DNA of 64,000 nt, taken from contig QCXZ01000064.1 in assembly GCA_025024175.1 (NCBI GenBank), positions 57,433,325 to 57,497,324 of the forward strand. Direction: 5' to 3'. The position numbers and the translations under genes were made by a program. Positions within the stretch are counted from its first letter, which is position 1; each line of letters starts with the position of its first letter. This stretch comes from Rhyzopertha dominica. Taxonomy: Eukaryota > Arthropoda > Insecta > Coleoptera > Bostrichidae. The notes beneath the pieces are model-generated. The model made no database searches and was not told where the DNA came from. It saw only the letters and a list, made by a program, of their open reading frames with translations. This document shows, piece after piece, positions 2,184-58,808 of this stretch.

Positions 2184-2185
2184 TA

Positions 2186-2217
2186 CGAGGCATGTTTTTT
2201 AAGTAAGTACCGTTTTG
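2186..2217 (+). repeat. mariner copy A, TIR (transposase 3' side)
   Basis: 32 bp starting CGAGGCATGTTTTTTAAGTA. It matches the reverse complement of 3484-3515 with one mismatch (GGCATG versus GGTATG). Confidence 0.95.
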
Positions 2218-2282
2218 GAATTAAAAAAGACGTGCAAGGATATCACAATAATTTTATCTTACATGAAAGCCTGTACCTTAAT

Positions 2283-3353: not shown

Positions 3354-3483
3354 CTTAAACACTCAGTAAACAACGTATACAATGAAGAATCAAACTGTAA
3401 TGGCGTCAGTGCGTAGACAAGAGATGTAGGTGACCAGCGCGCATGCGCGGAACGCCGACTGTAGCGCTGCGGCGGCGGAATCG

Positions 3484-3515
3484 CAAAACGGTACTTACTT
3501 AAAAAACATACCTCG
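3484..3515 (-). repeat. mariner copy A, TIR (transposase 5' side)
   Basis: Inverted partner of 2186-2217, followed directly by the flanking TA at 3516-3517. Confidence 0.95.
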
Positions 3516-3517
3516 TA

Positions 3518-4864
3518 CCTGTACATAGATTGCGTGATATAATTTTAAATTGATGATAGTCTATAAAAGTGATTAAAATTTCAACCTCGTACAATAGCAT
3601 AATATGGTAAAAAGAGTAATATTATATCTGACCATCGCATCTTCTGATTTTTTTAATTATTTATGTTCGACATAATGATTGGTCAATTTTTCCCAAGCAG
3701 TACAAACTTCTTATTGGAGGTAGGATAGTCTGCGAAGGATGTATCAAGTTGATCCTACTAATCACATCCCAAATATGTTAGACATGATTTCAATTGGGAA
3801 AAGTTTCGTGTATCTGGTTTATTGTTTTTCTGAATATGTAATACAAATAGTTAGAGAAAATGTGGCAAGCAGCTACCTTACCGCTACTACTCTAATAATG
3901 ATCTGCTTCCATAAGCGATAATTGCTTCCCAAAACATTACTCCAACAGTTCGCTTTCTACGAATGTCAGACAAAAAGGACTAATGCGACGATAGTTAGAC
4001 TGGCAGGCCTGTGTGAAGAATTGGTTCACAGTTTAGCTAGTGGTGGATAAAAAGGGTCTCTGACAGTCAAAAGCCCTAAGCGGAGGTCTTGAATGGCACT
4101 AATACGTTTTACTTGTTCGGCGACTCTTCTTTTTCGTCGTTGTCTTAGAGCAAGAGGAGCAAGAAAGCATGTATGAGAAAACAGATGTGGGCAGAGAAAC
4201 TAGAGATAAAATTATTATACAAAGCAGATTGCAAGCTTAAACTTTCATATTTTTATATTCCATTATGCAATCATATATATCGAAAATAATTATCTTTTAT
4301 TGGTTGTTGCAGATCCAATATTGCGCAGTATATTAACAAAAATGAGTCCAACTGGTTCAGTTTTATTTTGTACAAAATAATTGCACTGCCGTATTTTTTT
4401 CAAACCAAAATATATTCAGTTTATTTTCATCAGCAAATCACAAAATTCATATAATTCGGCATTGTCATGTACGTACCAGAACTAAAAGTGAAAATGACCG
4501 CTTTGGAACCTTAGATAATATCAGTCTCAAAGGAGTTGATGAACACTACATTATAGTTGTGAACAATACAAAGCTGTCCGAGAACTCATTATTAATAAAT
4601 TAAAGATCAAATACCAACAAATGCGATAGCATATCCCAAAGACAAAATTATTGCTGAACGATAATTGTTTGCCAATAAGTTTTAGTGAACTGATGTTCAT
4701 GTGTATAAAAGGGTACAACCACTTAAGGTAGAAGACATTAACATAATATAAAATCTATTAGTTATTAAATATCTGATAACTACATAATCAATAAATTGTT
4801 GGAAACACACCAGGATCATGTCGAAATTCCTGCACACAAAAACACAGCTCGCCAATGAAACGTA
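3518..4864. other. No gene seen
   Basis: AT-rich sequence. The longest open frame near 3739-3921 is about 60 codons and resembles nothing I know. Confidence 0.5.
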
Positions 4865-7805: not shown

Positions 7806-7994
7806 GCATAACTATAGCCCCATCTTGATTATCAATTTTTTTTGTCCAAATGCAAACGTAATGTAATTTAACTTACAAGAAGAATAAAAGAAGTAAAAAT
7901 AATAGGAATTGGACTATTTAAAGCAATTTATTAATAATTTCCATAATTTAATGAAATAATTTCTAAAATTTGTATGGTGCATAACTATAGCGCC
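7806..7994 (+). repeat. Tc1-like left IR/DR arm
   Basis: Outer direct-repeat motif at 7806-7821 and inner motif at 7979-7994 (GCATAACTATAGCGCC). The arm aligns over its length with the reverse complement of 11498-11690, with many point differences. Confidence 0.75.
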
Positions 7995-8031: not shown

Positions 8032-8189
8032 ATGCCTTATGGAGGCTATCTAAGTGACACGGAAAAAGGAAAAAACTTGGATTTTTGGGATAAAGTGAAA
8101 AATTGCTCAAAGAATTAACCGGTCTCGTAAAGTTGTCGCCAATTATTTGCGAAACCCCGAACAGCATGGCACAAACAAAAAAGGAAAAA
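8032..8189 (+). pseudogene. Tc1-like transposase, N-terminal part
   Basis: The ATG at 8032 opens MPYGGYLSDTEKGK. After one frameshift near 8098 the frame continues as KIAQRINRSRKVVANYLRNP and EQHGTNKKGKR, which is the paired-like HTH of Tc1 transposases. It breaks off where the inverted repeat of the inserted Penelope-like element begins. The rest of the gene resumes after about 10623. Confidence 0.8.
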
Positions 8190-8288
8190 GATAATATTTT
8201 GTCGGATAGATCGCTGTCTCTTGAAAACACTGACAAAAAATGAATAGTCTGACGTTTCGATTACACCTGTAATCTTTGTCAAAGACGA
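8190..8288. repeat. Penelope-like A, left terminal inverted repeat
   Basis: Matches the reverse complement of 10521-10622 almost base for base, including GATCGCTGTCTCTTGAAAAC and GACGTTTCGATTACACC. Read on the minus strand it contains a 6-bp stem (GATTAC/GTAATC) followed by CGAAACGTC, recalling a hammerhead stem II and GAAA core, but the expected CTGANGA box reads TTGACAA. Confidence 0.82.
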
Positions 8289-8343
8289 TAAAAAGGTCGT
8301 ACCAAATTTTCTTAACATCAAAACACACAAGTCAAATAAAATT

Positions 8344-9600
8344 ATGCTACAAACAAAATTTGCTTTAATTAGGAAACGCATACACAACACACGTGGACAA
8401 CTTAGTTTCTTAGATGAAGACATACACACAACATTGCAAATTCTATCCCACAACCTTTTTTATCAAGATTTTGAAGACATAATAAAGTTTACACAAAAAG
8501 TATACAAACAACTCTTTAACAAGGTCAAGGAACAAAACATACTTAAATTTGAGAAATTCAGTACCATTAAACACAATAAGTTCAAATCATCTAACATAGT
8601 TAAAACCAACATCAACAACACTGTGATAAACCTGTCAAAAAAGAGTGTCTCAGATGCTGCTGTAAATATTTTAGCGAAGGGGATGAACTTTGCTGTAACG
8701 CCACGGACCATTCCAAAAGTGGAGATAATGTCATCTGTGGAATCTTGTATAAGACTGCTTCCGAAAGATCAAGCGGATAAGATTAGGATGGATGTATGCC
8801 ACGCTATTAGAAATGCACGTACGCCCAAACCTAATGTGATATCTGAGGATATGAATGCTCTTAAGGATTTGAATACAGATAAGTCCATTATAGTTACTAG
8901 AGCAGATAAAGGTTCAGCCACAGTAATTTTAGATAGAACAGATTACGAGAATAAAGTTAAAGAGTTGTTAGATGAGGAAACATATCAAAAATTATCCCGA
9001 GATCCTACCTCAAAAATTTCCAAAATTACCAATGATCTTATCAAAAGTTCAAATCTTTCGAATGAGGAAAAGTCTCTTTTAACTGTTTCCGATTGCAAGG
9101 TACCTAAATTGTATGGTTTGCCCAAAATCCACAAAACCAATGTCCCGTTAAGACCCATAGTCAATACGATTGGCAGTCCTTGTTACAGATTGGCAAAATT
9201 TTGTGCCAACTATTTACAACCTTATGTGGGAAATACCAGTAGTTTCATCAAAAATTCTTCAGACTTTATTGATATTATAAAAGGTTTAAGTATTTCAGAA
9301 GCTGATATTTTGGTTAGTTTTGACGTGGTTTCTTTATTTACGAAAGTACCCATTCCTGAAACGATAGATATCATCAAATCCAAGCTTAATAGCGGTCCCT
9401 TAGGTGACACGATACCCAGATTATCCGAACATTGTTTAAAATCTACTTATTTCTTATGGAATGATAATTTTTATGAACAAAAATCAGGTTGTGCAATGGG
9501 TTCACCTCTAAGTCCTGTAGTAGCCAATTTGTTTATGGAAAATTTTGAACATGTAGCAATAAACAGTTTTCAGCTTAAACCAAAATGTTGGTATTTACAG
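8344..9600 (+). pseudogene. Penelope-like reverse transcriptase, YVDD lost
   Basis: The ATG at 8344 opens a frame that contains the family's ADKGSATVILDR, PKLYGLPKIHK, LRPIVNTIGSPCYRLAKF, LVSFDVVSLFTKVPIPET and GCAMGSPLSPVVANLFMENF blocks, i.e. RT motifs up to box B' in order. After LKPKCWY, where the catalytic YVDD box should follow, the sequence jumps to the region just before the endonuclease in another frame. The palm Asp-Asp codons are therefore deleted and reverse transcription is impossible. Retained homology is otherwise good, suggesting moderate age. Confidence 0.9.
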
Positions 9601-9619
9601 AACAAACACTGGACAGTTA

Positions 9620-10342
9620 GGACACAAGGTTTACAGAAAACCAACACACACAGACAGATATTTACATGCCACATCTCACCACCCTCCTTCTCAAAAGAAT
9701 AGTCTTATTAGGACGTTATTTGTTAGAGCACAAAGGATATCAGGTGAAAGTTCTGTACAAAAAGAAATATATCATCTTAAATCAGCGCTAGTGAGAAATG
9801 GTTATAGTAGTAAGAATATTTGGTCAGTTTTTAATAAAAGTGCTCATCCAAATCAAGTAAATTCTCAGCCACGACAAAGCAAATTGAAGTTGAGTTTGCC
9901 TTATGTACAAGGCCTTTCGGAAAAATTACAGAGGATGCTTAGAAAACACGATATTTTAGTTGTTGATAGTACATATAATAATTTAGATAAAACTTTAAGT
10001 TCTACTAAAGATAAAGTAAATTTAGAAAGTGAAGGTGTTTACAAAATTACTTGTTCTTGCGGAAAGTGTTACATAGGTTAAACTAAAAGAAAAGTAGGTA
10101 CGCGTTTGAAAGAACACATTCGTGCTACTAGGTTGCAACAGATAGATAAATCTTCCGTAGCTGAACATTCATATTTGACTAAACACATGATTGATTTTGA
10201 TAAAGCAAAAATTTTACATAGAGAAAAATATTATCACACACGTCTAATAAAAGAAGCTATAGAAATTTGTAGAAATACTAATAATTTTAATAGGGATTGT
10301 GGAAATTATGAGTTAGGTGACATTTGGAAGGCTATTTTGTAG
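9620..10342 (+). pseudogene. Penelope-like connector and GIY-YIG domain
   Basis: Same reading frame from 9620 to the stop after 10339, broken once by TAA at 10079-10081. It begins GHKVYRKPTHTDRYL, passes a connector with NGYSSKNIW, and reaches a GIY-YIG-like nuclease: GVYKITCSCGKCYIG, then, after the stop (CAA to TAA in the usual YIGQT position), TKRKVGTRLKEH and the helical tail. Family knowledge: the endonuclease nicks the target for priming. The single stop in the catalytic module plus the RT deletion make the element defective. Confidence 0.87.
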
Positions 10343-10520
10343 TTAACTTTTATCAAGTAGTTCGTGTATATCTAGTAGGTAGGTAGTTCCTTTTTCATCG
10401 TTAGGTTCCTTTTTTATCAGGTTGGCACGTTGTTTCTATGACGTCTCGCATCCTTGGTGATTTGTTTATTTACTTTCAAAATTTTGTTTAAACTTGTCTC
10501 AAGCAAATTTTGAGGTTCTT

Positions 10521-10622
10521 CGTCTTTGACAAAGATTACAGGTGTAATCGAAACGTCAGACTATTCACTTTTTGTCAGTGTTTTCAAGAGACAGCGATCT
10601 ATGCGACAAAATGTTATCTTAT
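10521..10622. repeat. Penelope-like A, right terminal inverted repeat
   Basis: Inverted partner of 8190-8288. On the plus strand it reads CTTTGACAAAGATTACAGG followed by TGTAATCGAAACGTCAG, a stem-loop with a GAAAC-GTC tail like that of hammerhead motifs in Penelope-like elements, though two bases of the CTGANGA core differ. Confidence 0.82.
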
Positions 10623-11494
10623 AATTATGGACGCTGAAAGCATTCACCCTCGTATAAGAAAGGAAAAAATTTCGCCCAGGGTCGAAAACGAATTGCCCAA
10701 GAGTACGGGCTTGACTATAGGAAGGGTTTAGAAGAAAAGTGAACACATTGTACTCCGAAAACTAAGAAAATATCCGAGACTTCTTCACCATAAAACAGCC
10801 CGTTTGGGATTTGCTCGTGAGAATATGAATCAAAATTGGGAAAATGTAAACCAAAACTTTACAATTAAATCTCGAATTAAACCATGTATTTTTTTTTAAT
10901 TTGGGATATCTTTTCTAAAGAAAAAATGCAATCTTGATTGTCCAGATGGTTTCTATTGTTATTGGCGAGATTTGAGGATAGGACCTGAGTATCTATCAAA
11001 ACGAAACGAAGTGATACATTAATGATATAGGGTGTCTTTTCAAAAGCAGGCGTTTTAACATTGGCGTACCCATCAACACGAAGAACAGTCGAGAGTACAT
11101 TCAAGTTCTTGAGACAAATCCAATGCCTCTTTTAAATGACAATAACGAACGAGATTTCATTTTCCAACAAGAGAGTGCGAGGATTCATGACAGTAGAGAG
11201 TCGATGACTTGGTTTGCCAAACAAAATGTCGAATTGTTAGGGTGTCCCTTTTGTTCACCTGACATGAACCCAATTGAAAATCTTTAAGGTATCTTACTTC
11301 GGCGAATATATGCAGATAACCGACAGTATGCCACCATAAATGAACTCAAAAATTTATTAGAACAGGTTTGGGTCAATTTGGAACCAAGAATATTAAATAA
11401 TTTGGTTGGAAGCACGAATTCTATAACTTTTGAGCAAACATTATTAATTTACGAATGCTTTGTTAAAATTTGTTCAATTCTGTGTGAAATTTAG
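10623..11494 (+). pseudogene. Tc1-like transposase, C-terminal part
   Basis: After the nested insert the Tc1-like gene resumes. STGLTIGRV and HIVLRKLRKYPRLLHHK are the second HTH and linker, RLGFARENMNQNWENV precedes the first Asp, then DGFYCYWRDLR, NDNNERDFIFQQESARIH, SPDMNPIENL, GILLRRIYADNRQYATINEL and NLEPRILNNLV. The 34-residue spacing between the second catalytic position and the final Glu fits DD34E, but the second Asp is now Glu (QQES instead of QQDN). A TAA replaces the Trp codon after ENL at 11285-11287, and there are earlier frameshifts. The frame ends at TAG 11492-11494, inside the inner right repeat. Confidence 0.85.
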
Positions 11495-11497
11495 ATA

Positions 11498-11690
11498 GGG
11501 CTATAGTTGCGCACCAGTCTAATGAAAAAAATTATTTTATTAAAATATGGGAAGTGTTAATAAATTACTCTGAATAGTCTAGTTGTTATTATATTTGTTT
11601 GTTATCTCTCTTGTTAGTTACACTAATTTATGTTTGCACTTGACGAAGAAAAACTTAAAATTCAAGATGGGGCTATAGCATAACTATATT
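11498..11690 (-). repeat. Tc1-like right IR/DR arm
   Basis: Inner motif at 11498-11515 and outer motif at about 11669-11685, in inverted orientation to the left arm. Confidence 0.75.
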
Positions 11691-11990: not shown

Positions 11991-12319
11991 ATTAGTCTTT
12001 AATAATCCACGAGCAATATAGATTGGTGTAAATGTATCATATATGAATGCAATTTATTGCTTTTTACAATTGATTGTTATCAATGAATAGGAAATATATT
12101 CCTACGTCATTATCAGACGAACTTAAATATGGGGATCTACACCAACACGTGTGTGTACTTTGTTTATTGCTGTTCTGGATTCCCCTCGAAACAACTATCC
12201 TTACGTAAATATTTTGCTAATTTCAAAAGCATTGAAAATATTCTATCATATAACATAATACCGAATTAAATTGACCCGGCTTGATAGAATTAAACTTTTT
12301 CCAAGGGTAACATCCTTTT

Positions 12320-13610
12320 TCACAAATATTTGACTTCAATTGTGCACTGTCTTTCGCATCTGATGATATTGTGAACGCTTTTGCCGGCCATTTTTCCAGC
12401 ACCTTTAAGATGCGCTTACCCGATGCCGTTCCTGAGGATTTTCGTGGTGGTGATCACTCGCCGAGTTTTGGTGTCGGTGTGAATGTGCTGCATCGGTTCC
12501 GCGTGTGTCCTGAGGAAATTACCCGTGCCGCCAAAAAATTGAAGCCTTCGATGACTATGGGCCCGGACAACATTCCAAGTTTTCTAGTTAAGGACTGTAT
12601 TTCTTGTCTGTGTCAACCTCTTAGTTTTAATTTTAACTTCATTTTAACTAATGCTGTATATCCTGTTGCTTGGAAAGTATCGAAAGTTTATCCTGTTTTG
12701 AAGTCCGGTGATAAAACTAACATACAAAATTACAGACCGATTGGTAATATTTGCAATTTTTCGAAATTGTTTGAATGTATTTTATCGGACGTTCTCTATA
12801 GTCATTTTTCGTCATTAACTATTGCTGAACAACATGGTTTTATTAGAGGAAAATCCACTCTAACCAATTTATGTGAATTTGTACAAAATTTGTCAAGTGC
12901 ACTTGACGCAAGATTGCAGGTCGATGTAGTTTATACGGATATGTCTAAGGCATTTGATACTGTGGACGTGGATATTCTCCTGAGCAAGCTGGATAGCATC
13001 GGTCTCTGTGATAATCTTATCAAATTGTTTCATTCAATGTTGCACGGTAGAAGGCAGTTTGTTGAATATAGAATTGTTAAATCTGCACAATTCAATACAC
13101 CAACTGGTGTGACACAAGGCTCTATTCTTGGTCCTTTACTTTTCAATATTTACCTACATTAATAGTGTGAAGGATCAAGTTGTCATGTCCGTTTTTGCTA
13201 TAAGCAGATGATTTAAAAATATTCAATGTAATTAATTCGGAATCTGATTGTGTTGCATTGCAGAAGTCTATTGATTGCTTTGTTCAGTGGTGTAGCCACA
13301 ATAGACTGACAGTCAATATCACTAAATGTTGTGTACTAACGTGTTCTCGCAAAATCAGTAATTTTACTTTTGATTATAATATAAATGGCATTATTTTGGA
13401 GAAACGCTCTCGAGTTCGGGATCTTGGCGTCGTCATTGATAGTCAGCTGTCCTTCTCTCCGCACATTGAGAAAATTTGTGAGGATGCTTTGAAGATGCTC
13501 GGTTTTGTAAAGAGAAATACCAGAGGTTTTGTGGTAGTAGCTTAACATTTAAGAAAATTTCTAAAAGTGTAATAACTGGTATTCCATAGTGTTTATTCCT
13601 CGAATTCCAC
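12320..13610 (+). pseudogene. LINE reverse transcriptase, 5'-truncated
   Basis: A non-LTR retrotransposon RT in the order expected: MGPDNIPSFLVKDC, WKVSKVYPVLKSGDKTNIQN with YRPIGNI, EQHGFIRGKSTLTNL, VDVVYTDMSKAFDTVD and GVTQGSILGPLLFNIY. A frameshift follows and the catalytic box, seen as GCAGATGAT at about 13203, is disrupted by a small insertion upstream, so YADD is no longer encoded. The frame resumes as ALQKSIDCFVQWCSHNRL, RVRDLGVVIDSQLSFSPHIE and ICEDALKMLGFVKRNTRGF. The remaining C-terminal part is deleted before an AT-rich 3' UTR that ends in the TTA microsatellite at 13788. No endonuclease domain lies upstream. Jockey/CR1-like by eye; clade not fixed. Confidence 0.87.
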
Positions 13611-24664: not shown

Positions 24665-24734
24665 TACAGATTGCGCTACGTCAAACTCCACAGGCTCGTA
24701 TTTTCTTTATTTTTTTAGGTATGACCTTAAGTTA

Positions 24735-26063
24735 CGAGGCATGTTTTTTAAGTAAGTACCGTTTTGCGATTCCGCCGCCGCCGCGCTACGGTCGGCGTTC
24801 CGCGCATGCGCGCTGGTTACCTACATCTCTTGTCTACGCACTGACGCCATTACATTTTGATTCTTCATCGTATACGTTGTTTGCTGAGTGTTTAAGATGT
24901 CTCCTACAATCGTGAGTCCCGCCGATTGTGAAGTACGGGCTGTTATACGATTTCTTAGTGCTAAAGGCGTAAAACCGATCGATATTCATCGTGAGATCTG
25001 TGAAGTTTACGGACAAAACATTATGAGTGATGGAATGGTAAGGAAATGGGTGAGAGCATTTAAAGATGGCCGCACAAATGTGCATGATGAAGAACGGAGT
25101 GGGCGTCCTTCGGTCGTTAATGAAGATTTGGTGCAGAAAGTGAACGAAAAGGTGAGAGAAAACAGACGCTTTACAATTTCGTCATTGTGCGACTGCTTTT
25201 CTCAATATTCTCGTAGTGTTTTGTATCGCATTGTGACCGAGAACTTGAACTACCGGAAATTGTGTTCACGTTGGGTTCCGAAAATGTTGACGGATTTGCA
25301 CAAAACCCAACGTTTAGGCAGTGCATTGACTTTCCTTGAGCGGTACCACAATGAAGGTGAAGATTTTTTAGACCAAATTGTTACTGGTGACAGAACATGG
25401 GTGGCCTACGTCACACCAGAATCGAAACAACAATCCATGGAATGGCGACATTCATCATCACCCAAAAAAAGTGAAGTTTAAGCAAACAATTTCTGCCCGG
25501 AAAGTCATGTGCACAGTTTTTTGGGACAGGAAAGTATTGCTAGTGGAGTTTCTGCCTCGTAATGAGACAATCAATGCAGCGTCTTATTATAAGACATTGA
25601 ACAATCTGCGTCGTGCAATCCAGAACAAAAGCCGTGGCAAGTTGAGTAAGGGTATCGTTTTGCTGCATGACAATGCCCGTCCACATGTGGCTAATCGGAC
25701 CAAAGATCTCATCAAATCTTTTAAATAGGAAACTCTAGATCATCCTCCATACAGCCCTGATCTGGCGCCCAGCGACTACCATTTGTTCCTGCACTTGAAG
25801 AAACACCTGGGTGGTCAGCGTCTTCAAGACGATAACGAAGTCGAAACATTTGTGATACAGTGGTTAACAAGTTAGGCGGCAGAATTTTATGAGGAGGGTA
25901 TTCAAAAACTGGTGCCACGTTATGACAAGTGCCCCAATATTCACGGAAATTATGTAGAAAAGTAGATTAAGGTACAGGCTTTCATGTAAGATAAAATTAT
26001 TGCGATATCTTTGCACGTCTTTTTTTAATTCCAAAACGGTACTTACTTAAAAAACATGCCTCG
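24735..26063 (+). mobile_element. mariner element, copy B
   Basis: 1329 bp with the same 32-bp terminal inverted repeats as copy A, flanked by TA at 24733-24734 and 26064-26065. It has inserted into the left arm of the palindromic element. Its flanks differ from those of copy A, so the two are separate insertions and not a duplicated block. Confidence 0.95.
24897..25965 (+). pseudogene. mariner transposase, frameshift and two stops
   Basis: Starts at ATG 24897 (MSPTIVSPADCEV). Same gene as in copy A, with about a dozen amino-acid differences. Three lesions: a 1-bp gain in an A run (seven A at 25464-25470 against six in copy A), the shared TAG at 25726-25728 between the second and third catalytic Asp, and a private TAG at 25873-25875 (CAG to TAG). 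It also lacks one codon in the WDRK(G)VLLVEF region and has GDRTW where copy A has GDETW. The catalytic Asp codons survive. It cannot make full transposase. Confidence 0.93.
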
Positions 26064-26922
26064 TATATCAAATTGTAGAACTTCCTAAACTTTTTAAAAT
26101 AGCATAGTGGGTCTCCAAAAATTTTTTTGCAGATTATCATATTTTGCAAATCAAGTTAATTTTTTTAACCTTACACCGTATAATAAATATTGCTTCACAG
26201 ATGGATGCCGCCTTTTACTTTCTTCAATTTGTGTCATTACCACGTATGTAATTTTTACCCCTTCTTAGTGAAAAACAAGAAAGCTTAGTAGTTGCCATGT
26301 TCTGTTAATAGGGTTGTTTTTAAGTGTTAGTTTAGTAGCTTATTACGGTACAAATTTGGAGTAACTTTTAAATAAATAAAGTACAAAGATCGTTCTATAG
26401 AAAGAAAGAGAGAGGCTAGAAAACGCAACCCTGCGATGAGCCTAGTTTCTACATTACGCATTAGCCTCATCGCAGGGTTTCGTTTTCTACCCTCTCTCTC
26501 TATAGAACGAACTTCGGACTTTATTTGTTTAAAAATTACTCCAAATTTTAGGGTTTTGTGTGCAGCGACGCGTATTTAGGCATAATTTATACCGCAAGAA
26601 GCTGTAAAACTAACACTTAAAAAAACAGAACATTGCGGCGACTAGTTTGTCTTGTTTTCTACTAAGGAACATGGTAGTTACACAAATTGAAGAGAACAAA
26701 AGTCGGCATCCAAATATGAAGCAATATTCTATACGGGGTAAGGATAAAGTATATTTACAAAAATTAACTTTACTTGCAAAATATCATTTTCTGCAACTGG
26801 ACACTCATTATGCTATTTTTAAGGAGTTTAAAAAGACCTACAATTTAACTTATAACTTAAGGTTGTACCTAAAAAAATAAAGAAAATATGAGGATGGGAA
26901 GTTTTAGGTGGCGGACCCTGTA

Positions 26923-41838: not shown

Positions 41839-43453
41839 GGACTGTAATAAGACAATCAGCAAATTTATCATAAAAAGAAAAACACGTAACAGTACTTATA
41901 TTTTTATTTTAGAGAATTCTATAGGAAATGAATTTATGTACAATGGCAATACACACTGTAGAACATCCAATTATACAAATTTTGAAGAATAATTTCAATG
42001 ACTTTTCTGTATTTTGAAACCCTTGCTTGGCGATTGTTGTGCCTTATTCTTGTTGGTAATAGCAAGCGGCTCTATTTTGCATAGGTACTAAAGACCGGTA
42101 CAAATCATGATATTTATATACGATTTTTTATATGATTTTCGTTTAAAAAGTTATTAGGGTTGACACAAAAAAAACTGCCACGTCTGAATATTGTTTCATT
42201 GTTATTCCTGCCTATGACTTTTATTGTACAAGAATCTCGAGGGATCTAATTTATTTGAGCTAGTTGTTCCTTATACAGCTGTTTCAATTCAATATAATTA
42301 TCAATAAAATTTCCGTTGGTTTGTTTCCGAATGCCTTTAGTAGTTGAAACTTAATAAAAAATTAACCTATTTATTTTGATTATGCTACACGTAGTAAAAG
42401 CCATTTAATAATTCCAAGTCAAAAACGATTTGTAGTAATATATTGAGATGTAGTTCCATTCGCTAATGCATACATACTCGAAAAATCGTGTGGGCTTTGA
42501 CTGTAAGCAACAGCAGTCACACAAAGCATTCCGATAATTCGCTTTGCCTGAATTATTGGTACCAGTTTTTTTTCTAATATGGACTAAATAAAACAAAATT
42601 ATCGACCTTGCACCTACGCAGCTATAAGTGTAAACAAAAAATTGCATTTTGAAATCGGTGAACCGACAGCCTTGAATTGGTATGCCGTAATAGCTTTACC
42701 GCTGCATTACTAATTTTATCTGGTTTTGAATTAAGAAACGGATAACTCCATATGAGGAAAATGTTAAATAATGATTATGGATGTTGATTTTCATTTCATT
42801 AGCTTGTGCAAATGGTGATAGCTTGAGGCCACCGCCCACAAACATCGATGCTTTCTGACTGCCTTTAGAAACGCAATCCTCATGGTCATTGTGCAGTTAT
42901 AATCACTTTTATAAACAAGCTAGTTAATTAGAACTCGTAATAACCTTATTGTCTCTTTTAATAGCGGACGAGACCTAATATATCATTATATCAACTTTTT
43001 TACGATAATATACAGTGCGTTAGAAGGGTGGAATAAATTCAATATACTTTGTAAGTGTGCGTTACTGGAAATATCGTCAGACACATCGATTACTGTTTAA
43101 TTAGTTAAAATGTGCGAGAACTTTACCTACAAAGATTACGTCATTATGGGTAAATAGATTACTGCATCTTGCTTCGTAGTTTGTAGGCTTTAATCTCTCC
43201 AAATTAAGAGGGGTAATCAAGAGGCACGACTGGACTATTGGGCGAATGGACAATAACTTCTGGCTCAAGAAATATAATTGCGAAGTTATATGCACCCGCC
43301 CTATAGTATAAGATCTGGCTCCTTCTGCATTTCATTTGTTTGGGTCGTTCAAAGTTCATTTGTCGTATAAAAGGTTTGAAGGATGAAGTAAGGCTGTCCT
43401 TCTTTGTATATAAATTTGGATTGCACCCTTTAGGATGAGGATATACATACATA
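41839..43453. other. No gene seen
   Basis: AT-rich, no recognisable coding or repeat signal. Confidence 0.5.
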
Positions 43454-43502
43454 AACTACACTGACGAGCTGTAACAAGAGCGAAACAGATCTGTCTGTAG
43501 TT
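43454..43502 (+). ncRNA. Hammerhead ribozyme, copy 1
   Basis: All conserved parts are in place. Stem I pairs AACTACA (43454-43460) with TGTAGTT (43496-43502), seven Watson-Crick pairs. The CUGANGA box is CTGACGA (43461-43467). Stem II is 43468-43481 (GCTGT/AGAGC with one G-G mismatch, loop AACA). GAAA is 43482-43485. Stem III is ACA/TGT closing the loop GATC (43485-43494). The predicted cleavage site is after C43495, in the triplet GTC. Known hammerhead class from layout: stem I open-ended. The weak point is the stem II mismatch. Confidence 0.83.
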
Positions 43503-43678
43503 GATTGTGGTGCAGACAGCATAGCATAGACATGGACTTTAATGTATGTCTGTTCTTGCTCGCTTGCAAAAAGTGCCGTGGGGGCCTGCTGTCAGCTTGA
43601 CGTATGCAGGTGCATGCCAACTTGACAGAATACAAGTAACTTTCTTAAGCCAGCTAGGTGCCTTTCTCACTATGTCAG
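43454..43678 (+). repeat. Ribozyme-bearing 225-bp repeat, copy 1
   Basis: Matches 49662-49892 in inverted orientation. Shared landmarks in order are CTGACGAGCTGTAA, GATCTGTCTGTAGTTG, ACAGCATAGCATA, AAAAAGTGCCGTGGGGGCCT, TGCAGGTGCATGCCAACTTG and CAGCTAGGTG, ending near TGTCAG. The repeat begins at stem I of a hammerhead fold. No open frame, no RNA polymerase III B box that I can see and no poly-A tail. Behaves like a short non-coding mobile unit. Confidence 0.8.
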
Positions 43679-45840
43679 AGTAATGCTGACAGATGGCATT
43701 ATCATCTCATTTTCTACTAACCTAATTACCTAGCTGTATCAGTATAAAAATTAACAAACTGTTTATTATTAACGGTAGTGTTGAATACACAATGCAACTG
43801 CTTATAAATTAACTAATATATATTTAGATTGATTATATTTCCAGAGTTTTTGCCAATTCAACCTTTTAGTGTCCTGACAATGGCTACTCTACACTCTTTA
43901 GCGACAAATATTACAGTATTGTTTAGTGTCCATCTATTTACTGCGCTATCTAGCATGTTTCTGGAAATTGTGCAACTTCTCCGTTATCAAAGAACACCGT
44001 TATAAAGCAAAAGCTGCTGACAAAGATACAAACAAGGAAGAATAAATTCTTGTAAAATAACTTCACTTTGGATAATTTAAAAAGTTTACATAATAAATCA
44101 TCAAAATTAAACTATTTAGAAATATTAGAGATATACAAAATTTTAAATGACCAAAATTGGACAATACTAAATGATTTTTGCAATTTCAGTTGTCCCATTC
44201 TAAATTTTTTATTTGAACGCTAATTTTTACGTTGCTGGTTTGAATGTAGTTTTTCCATTTTTTGTCAAGATTGCTTGTTTATATTTTTAATTTTGACAAT
44301 GTCATTAATTTTTTTCTATAATTTATTATATGGTACTGCATGACTATGGCATATTAGCGGAAAGCGCTTTACCTAAATATATGTATTGTGGATTTACCTT
44401 GGTGAAGTTATTTTACAAGAATTAATTCAAGATTCAATCCACGTAGAGCACAGTGGATCAGTTTTCAACGCTGAAAGAAGAATACTTTATTTCCGTCACA
44501 TTTGACTTTCAATCTGTGCTTTAAGTGTTGAATTCCGAAGTAAGTTTAATGTAGTAGCGTAGAAAAATTTCTGTGTACATCTCAACTTTTTACTTCTGCT
44601 GAACCGAACTTATTCGGAAATTGGGACTATCCTGTCACAAAATTTGAAAAAAGTTATACATAGTTATATAAATGGCAATATCTTATACTTTGTTGGGTCG
44701 TTATGTAGAAATATTTAAATAATTACACGTTTAACATAAAATTTGCTAAAATAGAAAGAAAAAAACGTCTCAGTTTATACAAGATTGGCTCAATATCTTT
44801 CGGCTGGAAAGATCTAACGCAGGTTAACGGATTTCTCCCATTTAAAACACTCGTCAAGTATTCTAATATAGAACAGAACCAAAGATGTAGCTAAAAAAAG
44901 TAAAAAAAACTTTTTCTCGAAACTATACTTTTGGGGTGTATTTTTTTTCTGTATGTAGACAAAACTAGTTGTCTTCGATGACTATTAATTGCTGCTTTAG
45001 CGGTCGTTAAGATATTGTAAAAGCGCTGATTGATTTGTTTGTATCAGGATATGCTAAATCGTCTTTCATATTCTTTGCCATTTCTTAAAACTCAAGGCAA
45101 GCATGCTCTCATTGTCGCTTGCCTTTTTTAGCCATTGGCAAATAAATCCGCTGCAGCTAAAGTACTTTATGTGTATTTTGTTGACTTCAATTAGTAATTC
45201 AAGTGTTATGTTTACGGAACGCATCTGGCACAGCCGCGATTTATAATCAACCAGCTCGGCATTCAAGTATTATTCCTCAATTCACTTAACACTTAACCCA
45301 AATAATCCCAAAAGTAAACCTCTTATGTGCGATGGGCATCTTACGGAGATACATAAAGTACACAATAGTGCATAGTAAACCGAAAACTTTTGAGGGAAGC
45401 ATAAAATTTTAATAATACGCTTCCATTACTTACGCCCATAAACCTTGGATGGGATTAGTTTGGAAGGCATCGTTAAACAAGGATTAGTGTTGGTCGCTGC
45501 ACGGTTCTCTTTCGAATGCCGTACACTGTGTTGAGTTGGGCATAAAAACTCGCGCTTTAATCTCTTTAATATTATATGCTTTCATGGACGACGCGTAACA
45601 CGGTAGCAACTTCGGGACAATGGACGTCGTTCTTAATCCTTTCATTGGTCACTTCTGAAGCCGAATAGCGGATTAAAATTTGACTTACGACATCTGTCTC
45701 AAAAAACATATTGCGCGAAGTCAATCAAGATTTGGAGGTTTACAAAACATGAAACCGCGGGAAAGTGTTTAATATTTGTTGTTCTTTAATTATAATCCTT
45801 AGTACTATTAGCCTAGTTTCCTCCGATTCAGGAATAATAT
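43679..45840. other. No gene seen
   Basis: AT-rich sequence. A 66-codon minus-strand frame at 45066-45266 has no recognisable motif. Confidence 0.45.
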
Positions 45841-46790: not shown

Positions 46791-49661
46791 TAAATTTTGG
46801 AATAATTTTTTCTGAGCTATTTTTATCATAAAAAGAACCGTTTTGCTAAAAGACCCAAAAACCGATTTTTGCTTTGCCCTTGCATAAAATATTTTGCTCA
46901 GATGGGATCGATGGGAATTATATGAGATGAATATTAATGTAAAATTAGTTTTTTTATATGACTCTGCTAGCCCTATTTCTCACAATTACTTAATAATATG
47001 CGCTGAAGATACAAATCACCTTTGTTTTGAAACATTGCGAACGTAATTCTAATTTACATCCGACTTATCAGAATATTAGTTGGATACTTTCTTTCTAATA
47101 AAATCAACACTGCAAAAAATTGCACTCCAATCACTATATTCACTAAGCGCATAAACTATGGCGATGCCATAAAGTCCAGCCGTAATAATTTGGAGGGCTT
47201 AATGCTAGTAATAAATTATTATTTACGTGTTATAATTGTCTGGTTATTGGTTTTCTGCCAATAAACTCATAAAGCTTTATTGAATAAACATTAATAACAG
47301 CGGTACAAAACACAGTGTACGATTTCGATCAGGTTTCATTGCCTTTGTAACGTCATGTAACTAGCGCGAGGTTGTAAAATTCATGTTACACAGGTCGTTG
47401 CTTCTAGCTTATTAACTGTTTCGCTGATGTGATTAATTTTTCGTATATTAAAAATGAGGCAGGATAAGCAGTTAAAGGGCAATAGGGATGTATAGAACAT
47501 AACGGATTTTCCAAAAAGGCACCTTGTTGTAGACCTACCATAATAACGGTACGTCACAGATGTTGAATTAAAAAGTCAGCAGTTCGCTTATGATTTGTTG
47601 GCGGACGAAGACAACGGGCAGTAGTTGCTTATTATTTGCATATGGTGTCAAGATCATTTATCGGAATTCTACTTGGCAATATGGTAAGTTTCTGCAGATT
47701 AAGTTGACATGGACAGGGTCTTTTTTCTGGACAAAAGCCTACAAATGTTTATTACTAAACCCAAGCTTTGAAACGAGCCATCGTACGCCACCTAAAGTGG
47801 ANGTAATAACGAAAAAATTTCTTGTGTCCTGCTTCAAATCCAGTTCAAGACTGTANTTTTGCTAGTTTTGATACGGGGCTTTCTTCNCAAGACTGGTTTG
47901 ATCTGATCANTTGATCAAAATGAGTAAATACGCTCCTGTATAGCAGCGAACCGTTTGAACGACACACAAAGTATTTTTAAACAAATAGCATTTCTAACGG
48001 GCGCTTGTGTGTACTAATATTTTTGGGTAACTACTTTCCTTAAAATGGTGTATTAGTTGTCAGTCACAAACAACTTGATGACATTTACTTTGTTTACGTT
48101 TTATCAAATTTAGCCTTGCTGGGCTATAAACCATTATATTCAAAATATACATTTATATTTCGAAAATAAGAAGGNTCGTTTAACACCAGTAATAGATAAA
48201 GTTTGGTGGCATTTTTTAATAAATTGTTTAGGTGCTATCGAAAAATTAGGCCTTTTGCTACACCTACCAAAATCTATCCATCTATCACTTTGGGGCGCTG
48301 TTTTGCCGGCAGTTTAGATTTACCAAACAAACAAAACTGATAACCTAGCAGTATTACATTTAAGGCGGAGATTTTTTTAAAGTTGTACAAAACTTGAATG
48401 AAGCACTTGCGTGTAATCTGCGTATTGAAACGAGCTCTGTTCCACAGGCTGCCAATACCGTGTATATTATACGGGATACAAAACAGGCTCTAGAATATAG
48501 CCATGGGGCTCAGCAAATTTAGTAAAAGCAATGTATTTCGAGAGGGCTAACAGAGCTTCATGATATGAGCTGTATTGAGAACCTTTAAATATCAAGCAAA
48601 GCAAAGGTTTGTAACTGTGTGTTTAAAATTATGTATTCTAGAACAACTATGATGCAACTTGAAACCTAACTGAATAGGTAGTAAAATGCTATACTTTGAT
48701 AAATCATTTTTAATCTGCCTGCACGTATAGCATGTTTACTGTGTAAAATACTAATAGGTCTAGAATCCCGAAATTTTCTTGGATTATTTATTTTTTAGTG
48801 ATGGAATTATATTTAACATTGTCCATGCAGAAGCAACAGTAGTATGGCTGAATGCAAAGTATGTCTTATAACGAGAGAGTTGGATAGGCAGCAACAATTA
48901 ATTAATATTACGTATAATTGCAGTACCATCACAATCAAACGCCTAAATTTAATTTTTGTTTATAAATATGCTAACATTATTTCCCGAAAATAAGCCACAT
49001 TTGAACCTATAGACGATGAGCGAATTTTCGAGTGGCTCCACCATCCATGAAGTTGGCATTTTTAGTGGGTAAACAGTTCCTATTAGCTGTCAGTTGTATG
49101 GTGTATGCTGCAATTACTGTAGCTAAACTTAACTAATTCTCTTATTTGTGCCTGTCTAGTGATAAAAGAATTACACCAGTAGGTATATTCTTTGATAATA
49201 ATCAACAAGAGTGCTTGAAAATATATATAATCTTTGCGTGTAAGTAAACAAAATGGCTGTGTTTTGGACTGAAACAGTTATGCAAACACAGACAAATGGG
49301 ATAAATTTTACTGCTTTCCATCAAACCTCATGAAAAAGAACGTCGCAATACCTAAAAGTGTCTGTACAGTGTCTGTAGAATAATTGAAAATTAAAACACT
49401 AGATACTTAAACACTTACATATCGAAAATAAGATGCGACCGACAAGAGAAAAGTGTAAGTTACCCGCTACGAGGTGCTGCAAGGTGGTATGCGCTCATAG
49501 CCTATTACTAAAAAACCACTGCAAAAGTCCAAAGTATGATATATTAGAAACTAAATTAAAATTTGCGGCTTAAGAATAACACATATTTCAGTTATCAGAA
49601 TTTATGTTTGCTCAGGCAGCCTCAAAGCAACTATACAGAGTTTAGCAGAAAAGTAAATGGA
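46791..49661. other. No gene seen; several N bases
   Basis: AT-rich, with N positions between 47.8 and 48.2 kb marking uncertain bases. An open frame at 47590-47865 has no recognisable domain. Confidence 0.45.
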
Positions 49662-49892
49662 CTGACAAGATGACAAAGCCACCTAGCTGCCTTAATAAGT
49701 ACTAACTGTAATCTGACAAGTTGGCATGCACCTGCATACATTAACCTGACAGCAGGCCCCCACGGCACTTTTTGGCGACGCGACGGGCAAGGACCAACAT
49801 ACATAAAAGTGCATGCCTATGCTATGCTGTTTGCACCGCAACCAACTACAGACAGATCCATTTTGCTGTCATTACAGCTCGTCAGTGCAGCT
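49662..49892 (-). repeat. Ribozyme-bearing 231-bp repeat, copy 2
   Basis: Inverted copy of 43454-43678 at a distance of about 6 kb, with scattered substitutions and a few indels. Starts at hammerhead stem I like copy 1 and ends at the same TGTCAG. Confidence 0.8.
49844..49892 (-). ncRNA. Hammerhead ribozyme, copy 2, one core change
   Basis: Read on the minus strand. Stem I pairs AGCTGCA (49892-49886) with TGTAGTT (49850-49844) using G-U wobbles. CTGACGA is 49885-49879. Stem II GCTGT/ACAGC with loop AATG is perfect here. The GAAA element reads AAAA (G12 to A), which should abolish or greatly reduce cleavage. Stem III region is ATGGATCTGT, then C. Relative to copy 1, stem I changed at two positions yet still pairs, and stem II is better preserved. 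Confidence 0.75.
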
Positions 49893-52215
49893 TAGGCTAA
49901 TGCAGACAGCATGGTATATGTCACTTCTTTTAGGAAATAGTACCCATTAAGGCTTTGCCATTGTGTAAATTCATTGCTGAAACGCATTTTTTGTCAGCAA
50001 ACCGCAGATCAGTCAAAATATGCTCCACGGAGTAAATTTCATCTGGCATAATTCCGTCTAATAATAGAAGTATTGTAGCTTTGTAATATATTGTAACCAT
50101 GTTTCCAAAACACCTAATTATAACATTTTCTTTCCACCACTTGGTTATTAAAGGTTATAAGAAGGCAAATATTCCTTGATGTTTCTGAGGCAGATCAAAA
50201 TTGTTGGGAGAAAACTGGTGAAAAAAGAAGTACGAAAAAATAGTAAACTTTTGGTATCATCTCCTGTAAACATTATCTTCACGCATATATTCTTAAGCAG
50301 ACCTGATGCTGCTCATTATTTCACACATCAAAGCGAACGCCGAATTAAAAGTAAAGCTATGAGGNATCTNTAATTCATCATCACTCACTAGATCCTAATT
50401 TGCTTCACTTAGTTCCATACAAAGTGTTAACCCGAACTAAAACCGTCTAATCGACAACAGCTGAGTAACGACACAGGATAGTAGACATTAAAAGAACGCA
50501 TTCCAAGAATAAATGATCCGGTTCAAATTATAAATGAATTTACTCAGGGGATCGGACCTTGGTTACGCTCACCACGTTTCGTGTGAATGAACCGGCGGGC
50601 ATTTTACGCGTCGGATACGAGGACAATTACGAATTTCAGTCTGTTTCACGGTTGCATATGTAAACGAACCGGAAATGCTCTATATCCCAAAACTTTTACC
50701 ATTATAAATTTGAAACAACCCATGCATGATGGAATAATATTCTTGAGTTATTGTCGAAGAGGAATAAGAAAAAAGCTCAGTGATTATTTGAATTGAAGGC
50801 AATAATCTCATGGGGACAAGATACAAGCTGTGTTCTGTTGAATTGAACATTTTATTTCTCTTGCATCTAATTAATTTTTTGCTTCGTGCAAAATACTTTT
50901 GACTGAATCGCTTTAATTTTAGACTGATATGCTTACTTTAAAAAATGTTTGGATTAAAGTACATTTCCGTTTGTTTTAAGACACGGACTTATTAATTCAA
51001 CAAAAAATTTCAATATTTCAATTGTTTATACGGGTTTCGTAAATTAAAAGTGGTGGCAGTGTGTTCCGTAGTCTTTATGGTTTGTGCTAGGTCATTATTT
51101 GTTTTTAACAGTATAGTAGGTATAGATGTATGTTAGATTTCTCGCATACGATGAAAGTGAAGAACTTTTTGAAGAGTTGCGTATTGGAGCAGTATTCCAA
51201 AAGACCAAAAACCCGTTTAGTGCAATAACAATGATGTTATCGAATTTATAAAAATATATTTTTTTACTAAATATATAAAAAATAGCTATTCAAAGCAGAT
51301 TATGAGGTAGACATGATTCTGTTCAAAAGCTACCATTAAAGTGAATGTTTTAACAAGCTTTGAAGTACTTAATGCAAAACAAAAAAAGATTGTAGGCATG
51401 TATAGGCACAATAATTTCTAAAACTGGGTAATATTTATAATAACACATACAAGATTCTATTTCTACGTAACAAAATAGGATCTTCTTGGATAACATTATT
51501 ATAAAATCTAAACGGAATAATATGTTGCCTTTGACGTATGTGAGTGCCCGCTATTTAGAGGATCAATGACGCGAAGTTACTGGACATGTTAGTTTCCCAC
51601 GATTCCCAGTACTTACGAATATGTAAGGATAAATTATCCGTCTTTCGTGTCAGCTAAGTAGAGCAGACCTGGCCTCTAATGTGTACTTTCTGCTGCTCCC
51701 TAATCACGGTCATTAGGAACATCTCTCTTATTTGCCTCAATCTGAGTTCGCCTTGCAGTAGGTGGAATAATATGATGTACGTTTCTGACGTTACGCTGGT
51801 GATTTCTTATACGTGTCTTCCACTTAGATACAAAGCACAGAAGTAATGTTAGAATAATGATAATGTGATAGAAGAGACCTAAAATTTAGTTGCTTTTATG
51901 AGGCAAGAATGGAAGAAAACGTGTGAGCGATATTCGCATTGAGAGGGTGTAGAAAAATTGGTATGAAAAACATATAAAAGTGTAAATGACATTGATGTAT
52001 TATTTAGTAGTAATGTCTCCTTTGCTGACCATTTTTCTGATGTCCGTAACTCCTCTAAAACGTATGGGATTATATTCTGCAATTAGAAACCCTTTCAAGA
52101 AGTTGAAAATACCCACATTGCTATTTATATCTTAACCTGTGCAAGCATGCACTTGAAGATTGAATAATATGCAAGAAGAAGGTCATTGCAAGATAGATAC
52201 ACCTTTTCATCGGGC
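49893..52215. other. No gene seen; GC-richer island near 50.5 kb
   Basis: AT-rich apart from about 50500-50650, which is richer in GC and CpG. Two N bases at about 50.37 kb. No coding motif. Confidence 0.45.
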
Positions 52216-53720
52216 TAAGTGTATTTCACAATTTTCATCCAGAACTCATATTTGACCCTTCTCTAATAACTCGTTGAACATGGGCGTACCGAAGGGGGGG
52301 GGGGCAAGGGGAGCAGCTGCCTCCCCCCTGGACCTGCCGGCGCGAGGTTATATTGCGCTCTAGGCAATATCTATTGAACGCCCCCCGTACCACTTCACCA
52401 AATCAAATTAATTTAGAGATGATTTGTTTTATAAACCACTTAAAGTATGTGCAAACATTCTAACAAAAACTGTATTGACATCTATTACGAAGTTCGATAA
52501 AGTTGCCCAAAATTGCAGCTTTTGCGCCCTAGGCGACTGCCTAGTTTGCCTTAATGGTAGCGCCGGCCCTGCTTCCAATTTAAAAAAATTATAAGCAAGT
52601 GTATTTTATAATTTTCATCCAGAACTCATATTTGACCCTTGCAAATGACCTTCTCTAATAAGTCGTTGTCAAATGGTTTCCAAGCTTAATCGATGCCATG
52701 TGCGTTTTGAAGTTGTAACTTCAACATTCTTGTTGTTACGAATCGTTGTCTTAGAGCCGATGTAGCTTTAAAAGGCTACCTTGGTCAGGATGGGTCATAA
52801 CACGATTTCTGCTTAGTTCAGTTCTTCTACGTTTTTCCTATAAAGATTTTTCAACTGACTACTGTTATACGGAATCACATCAGAATCTGTCATATATTCG
52901 GTGATAACTCTAACTTTGGTACCAAATTTCTAATTCACATTACATTTTAACAATTAATACAAAAAAAAACTAAAAATTCATCCGAACTCACGTTTATGAA
53001 AGGCAATTTATTTAATATACGTTTTAGGAATCCAGTAAAAGCATCATCAGCACGAATTAAAACCCGGTGTGTTGTTAAAAATGCAATTAAATATATTTCA
53101 GCTTATTTAAATGAAGCTTAATTTGGTTAAAATATTGAGTAGTCGGTTAATTTTTGAGAGCAATGCACTGGCGATCCAAGAAGGTTGGCTTGACGCATGG
53201 TGCTGAGGCATTTGCCATTCTGAGTTTTAATAATGTTAGTTCTCCATCGAGTCTCTTTCTCCGGGGAGTAAAAGTGACTACAATTGTATCTTTAGCACCT
53301 ATACATATGAACTCCTAGCTTACATTTCTAATGCTTCTAGTATGAGAAGTTGAAACTGTACTAAAAGCGCATCGGTTAATGCATTAGTCTTTGATACGTA
53401 TTAATTCTGAATCAGAAATCGTGGTCCTATAAGTAGAACTTTTAAGGTAAAATGTATGTTCCCTTAGTAATTCGTATGATATCATTATACATTATGTGGA
53501 TCACGGATCTATATTCTCCCAAATAAAATGTATTAACTCATATTTGTTAAACGCGAGAGCGATGCAACTAAATTAGTAATAAAGGGGCGTTATATGATCA
53601 GTGTATAAATATGGAATAAGTACTTCATTAATTGGTGCTAACAAATAAATAACTAAAGTACTAGATATAAAAGGGTTTGAGGTTGCATTGACCACCGAGC
53701 AAAAGCTCACGAACATAGCG
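52216..53720 (+). repeat. 1.5-kb interspersed repeat, copy 1
   Basis: Aligns in direct orientation with 57271-58808, with substitutions and indels. The left terminus CATGGGCGTACC at 52279-52290 is present here, while the inverse terminus (GGTACGCCCATG) is preserved only in copy 2. About 60 bp before the terminus (from 52216, AAGTGTATTTCACAATTTTC) repeats sequence found again inside the element at about 52600-52670. No coding capacity seen. Contains a hAT-type MITE. Confidence 0.8.
52336..52571. mobile_element. hAT-type MITE in repeat copy 1
   Basis: Inner insertion ending GCGCCGGCCCTG. The left end is shortened to GCCGGCGCGAGG by a deletion. The 8 bp after the right end (CTTCCAAT) nearly match the 8 bp before the intact left end in the other copy (CTTCCACT). 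Confidence 0.72.
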
Positions 53721-57270: not shown

Positions 57271-58808
57271 GCAAGGGGAGCAGCTGCCTCCCCCTGGACC
57301 TGGGTTGTCAACTCTGGGCCCTTCCACTCAGTGCCGGCGCGAGGTTATATTGTGCTCTAGGCAATATTTATTGGACGTCCCCCGTACCACTTCACAAATA
57401 CAAATTAATTTAGAGATGATTTGTTTTATAAACCACTTAAAGCGTGTGCAAACATTCTAATAAAAACTGTATTGACATCTATTACGAAGTTCTATAAAGA
57501 TGCCCAAAATTGCAGCTTTTGAGCCCTAGGCGACTGCCTAGTGTGCCTTAATGGTAGCGCCGGCCCTGCTTCCAAATTATGGGCAAGTGTATTTTATAAT
57601 TTTCATCCAGAACTCATATTTGACCCTTGCAAATGACCTTCTCTAATAAATCGTTGTCAAATGGTTTCCAAGCTTAATCGATGCCATTTGCGTTTGGAAG
57701 CTGTAACTGCAATATTCTTGTTGTTACGAATGGTTGTCTTAGGGAGGCTATAGCTTTAAAAGAGTATATTGGTCAGGATGAGTCATAACACGATTTCTGC
57801 TTAGTTCAGCTTTTCTACATTTTCCTATAAAGATTGTTCAACTAACCACTGTTATATGAAATCACATCAAAATCTGTCATATATTCGGTGATAACTCTTT
57901 AACCTCTAACCAAATTTCTAAATTCACATTACATTTTAACAATTAATACAAAAAACAAAGAAAAAGCTAAAAATCCATCCGAACCCACGTTTATGAAAGT
58001 CAATTTATTTAATATAAGTTTTAGGAATCCAGTAAAAGCATTATCAGCACGAATGAAAACCCGGTTTTAGTTTATTTATATGAAGCTTAATTTGGTTAAA
58101 TATTAAGTAGTCGGTTAATTTTTGAGATCTAAGAAGGTTGGCTTGACGCATAATGCTGAGGCATTCGTCATTCTGAGTTTTAATAATGTTAGTTACATGT
58201 CAATCCCTGGGGAGTAAAAATTACTACAATTGTATCCTTACGACCTATACATATGAACTCCCAGCTTAAATTTCTAAAGATTCTGGTGTGAGAAGTTGAA
58301 AGTGCACTAAAATCGCATCGGTTAACGCATTAGTCTTTGATATGTGTTAATTCTGAATCAGAAATCGTGCTCCTATTATTAGTAGAACTCTTAAGGTGAA
58401 ATTTATGTTCCTTTGGTACTTCGTATGATATCATTATACATTATGTAGATCACGGATCTTTATTCTCCCAAATAAAATGTATCAACCTATTTTTTGTTAA
58501 ACGCGAGAGCGATGCAAATGAATGCGCCTCACCTAACTGAATTCATCAATAACGGAATTAGTAATAAAGAGGCTTTGTATGATCAGTGTACATAAAAACG
58601 TATAAATAATTTGCGTCTTTATTTTACAGAAGTTGCTTTAAGTCGCCTTGCAGAAAATCAACGAAGATGAAGATTGTTCATGGAATAAATACTTCATTAA
58701 TTACTTAAGTACCTATATCTGATAAACATTTCTATATATGTTGAATTATACTCTATAGGACGTTCCTGCTTTGCCCCTCCCCTAGACCAAAAGCTGGGTA
58801 CGCCCATG
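57271..58808 (+). repeat. 1.5-kb interspersed repeat, copy 2
   Basis: Direct copy of 52279-53720. Ends with GGTACGCCCATG at 58797-58808, the inverse of copy 1's left terminus. The left terminus is lost here (the match begins at GCAAGGGGAGCAGCTGCC). It keeps about 160 bp near 58520-58690 that copy 1 has deleted. Taken together the two copies describe a TIR element of about 1.5 kb without coding capacity. Confidence 0.8.
57329..57568. mobile_element. hAT-type MITE in repeat copy 2
   Basis: 240 bp with ends CAGTGCCGGCGC and, inverted, CAGGGCCGGCGC. Flanked by CTTCCACT (57321-57328) and CTTCCAAA (57569-57576), a decayed 8-bp duplication. CAG-type ends plus 8-bp duplication are the hAT signature. 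Confidence 0.78.

Follow-up and report, generated by a model that had tools for sequence, protein, structure and literature searches.

A divergent hammerhead ribozyme in Rhyzopertha dominica and a family of head-to-head inserts suggestive of retrozyme copying from two origins

Non-LTR retrozymes carrying type I hammerhead ribozymes have been published for the animals Acropora, Mytilus and Ambystoma (Cervera and de la Pena 2020, PMC7229834). Passages of that paper describe low-GC, non-coding tandem units of 150-450 bp that are flanked by target duplications longer than 4 bp and share their genomes with Penelope-like elements. Such units have been published to give rise to circles, and the authors propose that a primed circle is copied into tandem cDNA, target-primed or otherwise, by Penelope-like or LINE enzymes acting on it, with Penelope-like elements as strong candidates (PMC7229834). 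Penelope-like elements in turn are described with related features: those of rotifers have head-to-head arms and 8-10-bp target duplications (PMC3846280), an Anolis element carries a hammerhead, and the Anolis protein Poseidon_Ac cuts and extends both strands, starting internally at two adjacent sites without difference between the strands (PMC11167929). In insects, the repeat pDo500 of Dolichopoda contains a hammerhead with compensatory changes (PMC2837043).

We consider here a stretch of 64,000 nucleotides from the beetle Rhyzopertha dominica (the window), and think it reasonably probable that a motif at 43454..43502 (+ strand) is the ribozyme of an eroded, non-coding and non-autonomous retrozyme of the animal non-LTR type, copied by a Penelope-like enzyme at two fixed sites that we call S1 and S2. 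The family to which it belongs shares the published traits, with a unit of 318-350 nt (inside the 150-450-bp range), a type I hammerhead, no frame, GC below 50%, tandem copies, target duplications longer than 4 bp and co-resident Penelope-like elements. It differs from the published animal retrozymes in the anatomy of its inserts, most of which stand head-to-head between two fixed ends, and in the great length of the outer part of stem I. The plant LTR retrozyme does not fit, since it has a type III hammerhead in its LTRs and 4-bp duplications, whereas the hammerhead here is type I and the duplications measure 9-14 bp; pDo500, otherwise alike, is described as satellite DNA. A sequence-only reading of this stretch had proposed an undescribed ribozyme-bearing non-autonomous retroelement. 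Ribozyme-bearing, frameless and non-autonomous it appears to be, with other and tandem copies, but this kind of element is already published (PMC7229834); the new part is the two-origin anatomy of its inserts, which we did not find in the open-licence PubMed Central literature. There, 'retrozyme' combined with 'head-to-head' returns nothing and combined with 'target-primed reverse transcription' returns, to judge by title, LTR elements only, and the word 'inverted' is absent from the available main text of PMC7229834.

The motif has the core CUGANGA...GAA...UH and three helices, and is open at stem I, as in a type I hammerhead. On re-reading the coordinates, each element that the sequence-only reading had named was present where claimed. 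Stem I is formed by AACTACA (43454-43460) and TGTAGTT (43496-43502); the conserved core CTGACGA (43461-43467), stem II (43468-43481, + strand) and GAA (43482-43484) follow in order, and in stem III ACA (43485-43487) pairs with TGT (43492-43494) across the loop GATC (43488-43491). C17 lies at 43495, with cleavage predicted directly 3' of C43495. The catalytic core is intact, and the mismatch already reported in stem II is a G-G at the top pair, beside three pairs; among the 57 aligned copies that have letters at this position, 51 show G-C, A-U or G-U. Identification of the ribozyme draws on a descriptor, an Rfam score, a family pattern and covariation. The descriptor of core plus three helices, which was defined only once the motif was known, matches 43454-43502 as the sole site in the window and finds 0 sites in 100 simulated windows. 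Taken by itself, the bare core pattern lacks significance (29 matches listed, overlapping ones included, against a shuffle mean of 12.7, with 6 of 100 shuffles as high), and we dropped it as support for a ribozyme because shuffles reach the same counts.

Hammerhead_HH9, an isolated vertebrate motif, is the best-scoring Rfam family for the window motif (RF02275; 23.0 bits, E 0.0059 in a search of 1,201 bases), and two other element copies score 25.9 and 28.5 bits with it. All three scores are nevertheless below its gathering score of 52, and gathering was reached nowhere in the whole window, nor in the 8 loci scanned at gathering, so that the covariance-model check names a best family while falling short of the formal threshold. 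Nor is the hammerhead, at -6.2 kcal/mol, the lowest-energy fold of the 49-nt motif, which reaches -11.8 kcal/mol (z -1.49). Because two majority ribozyme types behave like the window motif (-12.8 against -8.0 and -13.1 against -8.1 kcal/mol, lowest fold against hammerhead), folding energy, calculated without tertiary contacts, neither supports nor excludes it.

A search of the genome (479 Mb in 138 contigs) with a ribozyme family pattern allowing up to 2 mismatches gave 210 forward and 197 reverse matches, 407 together, compared with 0 and 0 for the reversed control; other genomic copies sharing the ribozyme, on which the earlier proposal had been made to depend, thus exist in number. A DNA search with the window copy listed 61 matches, 40 being scored of 3,179 first-look candidates. 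We aligned 59 ribozyme regions, the window's own and 58 from 50 loci, under a paired structure that we named ourselves. Among these copies, 92.0% of cells pair (89.5 in shuffles), 95 cells show two-sided change (41.4 in shuffles) and the covariation score is 0.152 (0.107 in shuffles), levels that 0 of 500 shuffles reach in each case, with the caveat that related sequences can exceed shuffles without structure. Neither the number of pairs with two-sided change (9, reached by 148 of 500 shuffles) nor that of further pair types (38, reached by 400 of 500) is above shuffles, and sliding the structure lowers pairing to 15-43%. Since kinship alone can beat shuffles, the paired changes themselves weigh more: among the 59 copies, stem I shows A-U in 29 and G-C in 25, stem II G-C in 35 and A-U in 11, and stem III C-G in 27 and U-A in 27, the U-A type of stem III marking a second ribozyme subfamily. 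Up to 17 further pairs extend stem I outward in other copies. Every core position is kept in 45 of the 59: the window copy, 27 of the 40 whose loci were selected for similarity, and 17 of the 18 whose loci the ribozyme pattern itself had picked out, a biased subset. We judge the hammerhead to be real because of the excess of genome matches over the reversed control together with the compensatory changes in three stems; on this reading the window motif is a divergent type I hammerhead, a case that rests on the family and not on one score.

The window holds two copies of the element. Copy 1 (43449..43721) is a single arm with its RNA sense on the + strand; its right end lies at S2 and its left end is truncated at the ribozyme, stopping at about 43449-43452, so that the outer helix of stem I lacks its 5' strand. 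The 3' strand of that helix is still present (43512..43529, +), and its missing partner is found in other copies. By eye we placed the segment equivalent to S1 at 43530..43543 (+), where other copies have the terminal motif GACATGCATTTTA, and S2 itself at 43707..43721 (+), the right end of the copy, with terminal motif CTAATTTTCTAC or CTAAATTCTTAC in other copies. No target duplication of copy 1 was found, the longest edge repeat being 6 bp, and Tandem Repeats Finder reports no array there. Copy 2 (49661-49953 overall) is inverted relative to copy 1 and consists of a main arm at 49661..49912 (- strand), which carries part of the outer stem I, and a short second arm set head-to-head to it at 49920..49953 (+ strand). 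Its hammerhead, read by eye at 49844..49892 (-), has a core broken at position 12, GAA to AAA, and scores 15.6 bits with HH9 (E 0.53). The part shared by the two copies (49662-49894 in copy 2) is 82% identical. Two statements that the sequence-only reading had made fail on the wider family: its repeat of about 225 bp is only the part common to copies 1 and 2, the full unit elsewhere being 318-350 bp, and the ribozyme that it placed at the repeat edge is internal to the full unit, standing at an edge only through the cut-off at about 43449-43452. Its observation that the repeat has no open frame holds, in that no frame of at least 150 aa overlaps either copy. As far as the DNA can tell, copy 1 is a truncated insert of one arm, and its ribozyme is impaired, probably weak or dead, through the loss of the 5' side of outer stem I and of one pair in stem II.

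To describe the inserts as a population, we used 70 loci (L009-L078) less 5 duplicates, leaving 65; L001-L008, of which L001 is the window copy itself, were omitted as shorter fetches of places already covered. We saw 73 copies and kept 66, dropping 7 that lay at a locus edge or covered under 100 nt. Long arms give a unit of 350 bp in L010 and of 318-350 bp overall, and four natural monomers between predicted ribozyme cut sites measure 318, 334, 334 and 331 nt, with a GC of 0.42-0.48 (4 of 4 below 50%). Folded as circles, the monomers reach -81.1, -97.0, -119.4 and -133.6 kcal/mol, compared with letter-shuffle means of -69.7, -75.2, -79.8 and -89.8. An arm exceeds the 350-nt unit in 20 of the 66 copies, measuring 384 or more in 16 of them and 666 at the longest; the search for tandem copies that had been proposed thus succeeds in this form, and we saw no long tandem arrays in the examined loci. 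Arms that outrun the unit and pass across the ribozyme cut site need a circular or an uncut multimeric template, and multimeric linear RNA would also fit. Neither copy ends nor copy stops fall at the cut site (0 of 95 in each case, where few are expected by chance); for stops, counted within u39-48, about 2.7 would be expected if they were uniform, so that with regard to run-off at the cleavage site the result shows only the absence of a pile-up.

Two arms lie head-to-head, with both outer ends RNA-3', in 29 of the 66 copies; the other 37 are one-armed, and in no copy do the two outer ends both face the other way. The 95 RNA-3'-facing ends comprise 36 at S1 (u84-101), 40 at S2 (u261-302) and 19 elsewhere, so that two bins, drawn once the data had been seen, hold 76 of them, whereas the 37 ends of the other polarity place 0 in the S1 bin and 6 in the S2 bin. 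About 155-195 nt separate S1 from S2. Among the 29 head-to-head copies, the outer ends are S1 with S2 in 17, S1 with S1 in 1, S2 with S2 in 1, and include an end elsewhere in 10.

Target duplications point to the exact insert boundaries in a subset of these copies. Exact edge repeats of at least 9 bp, 9-14 bp in length, flank 18 of the 66, where 0.76 would be expected from flanks swapped between loci; in the remaining 48 there is no exact edge repeat of 9 bp, and we noticed no LTR-like direct flanks. Within a few bases, the S1 ends of the 18 read ...GACATGCATTTT(A) and the S2 ends ...GCCATCTAAATTCTTA(CT) or ...CTAATTTTCTAC. One S1 and one S2 end are found in 15 of the 18, 11 by coordinates and 4 more by eye (L027, L032 and L035 through their short second arms, L042 through an end like S2), and only L024, L043 and L065 show a single site. 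A separate search for second arms recovers L027, L032 and L035, the last with one mismatch; among the 30 testable one-armed copies it finds a second end in 3 and none in 27, with a control rate of 0.044 per window over 294 windows. The Anolis protein Poseidon_Ac differs in that its start sites are adjacent and used alike on both strands, whereas S1 and S2 are widely spaced and mostly occur once each per insert (compare PMC11167929).

A candidate source family for the mobilising enzyme is present in the same window. The element at 8190..10658 (+) has an interrupted frame and head-to-head terminal arms, and we take it to be Penelope-like, an assignment that leans on its reverse transcriptase, on the relatives of that enzyme and on sequence motifs. 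Its arms (101 bp) are 97% alike, the right end extends 40 nt beyond the left, and the 10-bp target duplication AAAGGAAAAA stands at 8180..8189 and again at 10659..10668. Near both ends lie degenerate motifs (10522..10561 on + and an inverted twin, 8247-8286 on -) that we take, from a reading by eye, to be minimal hammerhead-like, although their core departs from the consensus. The element appears to have two start positions, one per end, and its 40-nt offset recalls two traits that have been described in Penelope-like elements, an optional tail of 30-40 bp and a pair of start sites (PMC11167929). Matches to its reverse transcriptase number at least 96 listed in the genome, with 88 scored of 9,142 candidates; 10 of the 96 listed fall within open reading frames of 780-814 aa and are free of stops over the matched part, and four pairs of listed matches are close together and head-to-head. 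Among the 120 relatives listed of 3,308 are an 836-aa Anolis protein and one protein with PF01541 (GIY-YIG); plants, a lizard and a sea urchin are represented among the relatives. Pfam found no GIY-YIG domain in the pieces of the window's element, and no solved structure matched it. The element itself sits inside an older DNA-transposon-like repeat, whose outer inverted repeats are at 7812-7991 and 11500-11678.

Taken together, the insert ends suggest that both strands of a cut target served to copy circular or multimeric RNA, starting from two origins at fixed positions. In the mechanism that we propose, tandem units would be transcribed, type I hammerheads would cleave the RNA to unit lengths, and a host ligase would close the circles. 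A reverse transcriptase/endonuclease, presumably Penelope-like and from the same genome, would then cut both target strands and copy the RNA internally at two fixed sites, priming at S1 from one target end and at S2 from the other. Each copy would extend for a variable distance, in some cases beyond a full turn, and the two would be joined where they meet, leaving a head-to-head insert within a 9-14-bp target duplication. The Penelope-like element is the likely source of the enzyme, a link that we draw from anatomy and co-occurrence because S1 and S2, by eye, resemble neither of its termini and the retrozyme unit has no sequence match to it; since both termini are unlike S1 and S2, the copying could also be the work of a different Penelope-like family or of some other enzyme. 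The claim that the repeat is unlike the Penelope-like elements of the window accordingly holds for sequence, and gives way for insert anatomy, which is similarly two-origin and head-to-head.

The copying enzyme is also where the most substantial of the other explanations enters. The same retrozyme might be moved by a LINE-type (non-LTR) reverse transcriptase, the inversions then being ordinary twin priming, which is known for L1 (PMC2837659), and a fragment at 12311-13159 (Pfam RVT_1) that looks non-LTR lies in the window. We hold this to be unlikely: both insert ends fall at fixed RNA positions, and by eye the exact ends of the 18 copies with target duplications show neither poly(A) nor a simple repeat at S1 or S2. 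Twin priming of L1, by comparison, has a variable inner priming site. Target duplications of 9-14 bp would suit LINEs too. If instead the unit were a solo pseudo-LTR or another derivative of a Penelope-like element and not an independent retrozyme, its head-to-head arms, target duplications, two start sites and hammerhead would all be accounted for, these being Penelope-like features as well (PMC3846280, PMC11167929). A flanking reverse transcriptase/GIY-YIG frame was not found at the 65 loci, however; Penelope-like coding matches occur at only 5 of them, fragmentary and with no shared position relative to the unit. At L041 (1866-2733) the retrozyme copy (2023-2410) has a piece of such a fragment on either side. 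Penelope-like elements, moreover, code for an enzyme of some 800 aa and have hammerheads of the minimal type, while this unit is non-coding, matches nothing in the window's element, has origins far apart, and combines a 3-bp stem III with a long stem I, unlike the minimal Penelope-like hammerhead (PMC7761336), and we regard such a derivation as quite improbable.

Nor do the inverted arms readily yield to self-priming (snap-back) of a single cDNA, an idea put forward for Penelope-like palindromes (PMC3846280) and in keeping with the junctions of L010 and L015 (u323/u58), which make use of the inverted repeat in stem I. Under snap-back the inner coordinates should match, whereas by hand count over 50 nt of the unit, measured round it, separate them in 25 of 29 junctions, and the pairing of S1 with S2 in 17 of 29 inserts against 2 same-site pairs points the same way; we rate it as very improbable. 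A satellite-type repeat or chance motif without mobility, which has a precedent in insect satellite repeats with hammerheads (PMC2837043), is contradicted by the target duplications and set against the dispersal of copies across many contigs and the covariation in the ribozyme stems, so that we give it almost no credence.

Our preferred reading, copying of the retrozyme RNA from both cut strands by a Penelope-like enzyme, can be put more generally: circles of animal retrozymes would be copied from two dedicated and distant origins, one per cut strand, by a co-resident Penelope-like enzyme, giving cDNAs of the same sense joined head-to-head. On this broader statement our judgement is evenly divided. 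If it is true, ribozyme circles would have a two-origin mode of retrotransposition that leaves a readable scar in each insert. Inserts that record the start, direction and extent of copying occur in the same genome as long open Penelope-like frames, which makes the enzyme question testable with one purified system and one RNA.

Other repeats are present in the window. Two mariner-type (Mos1-like) transposons, at 2184-3520 and 24730-26065, are 97% alike and in opposite orientation, and a direct repeat of about 1.2 kb, 86% identical, occupies 52335-53573 and 57332-58523.
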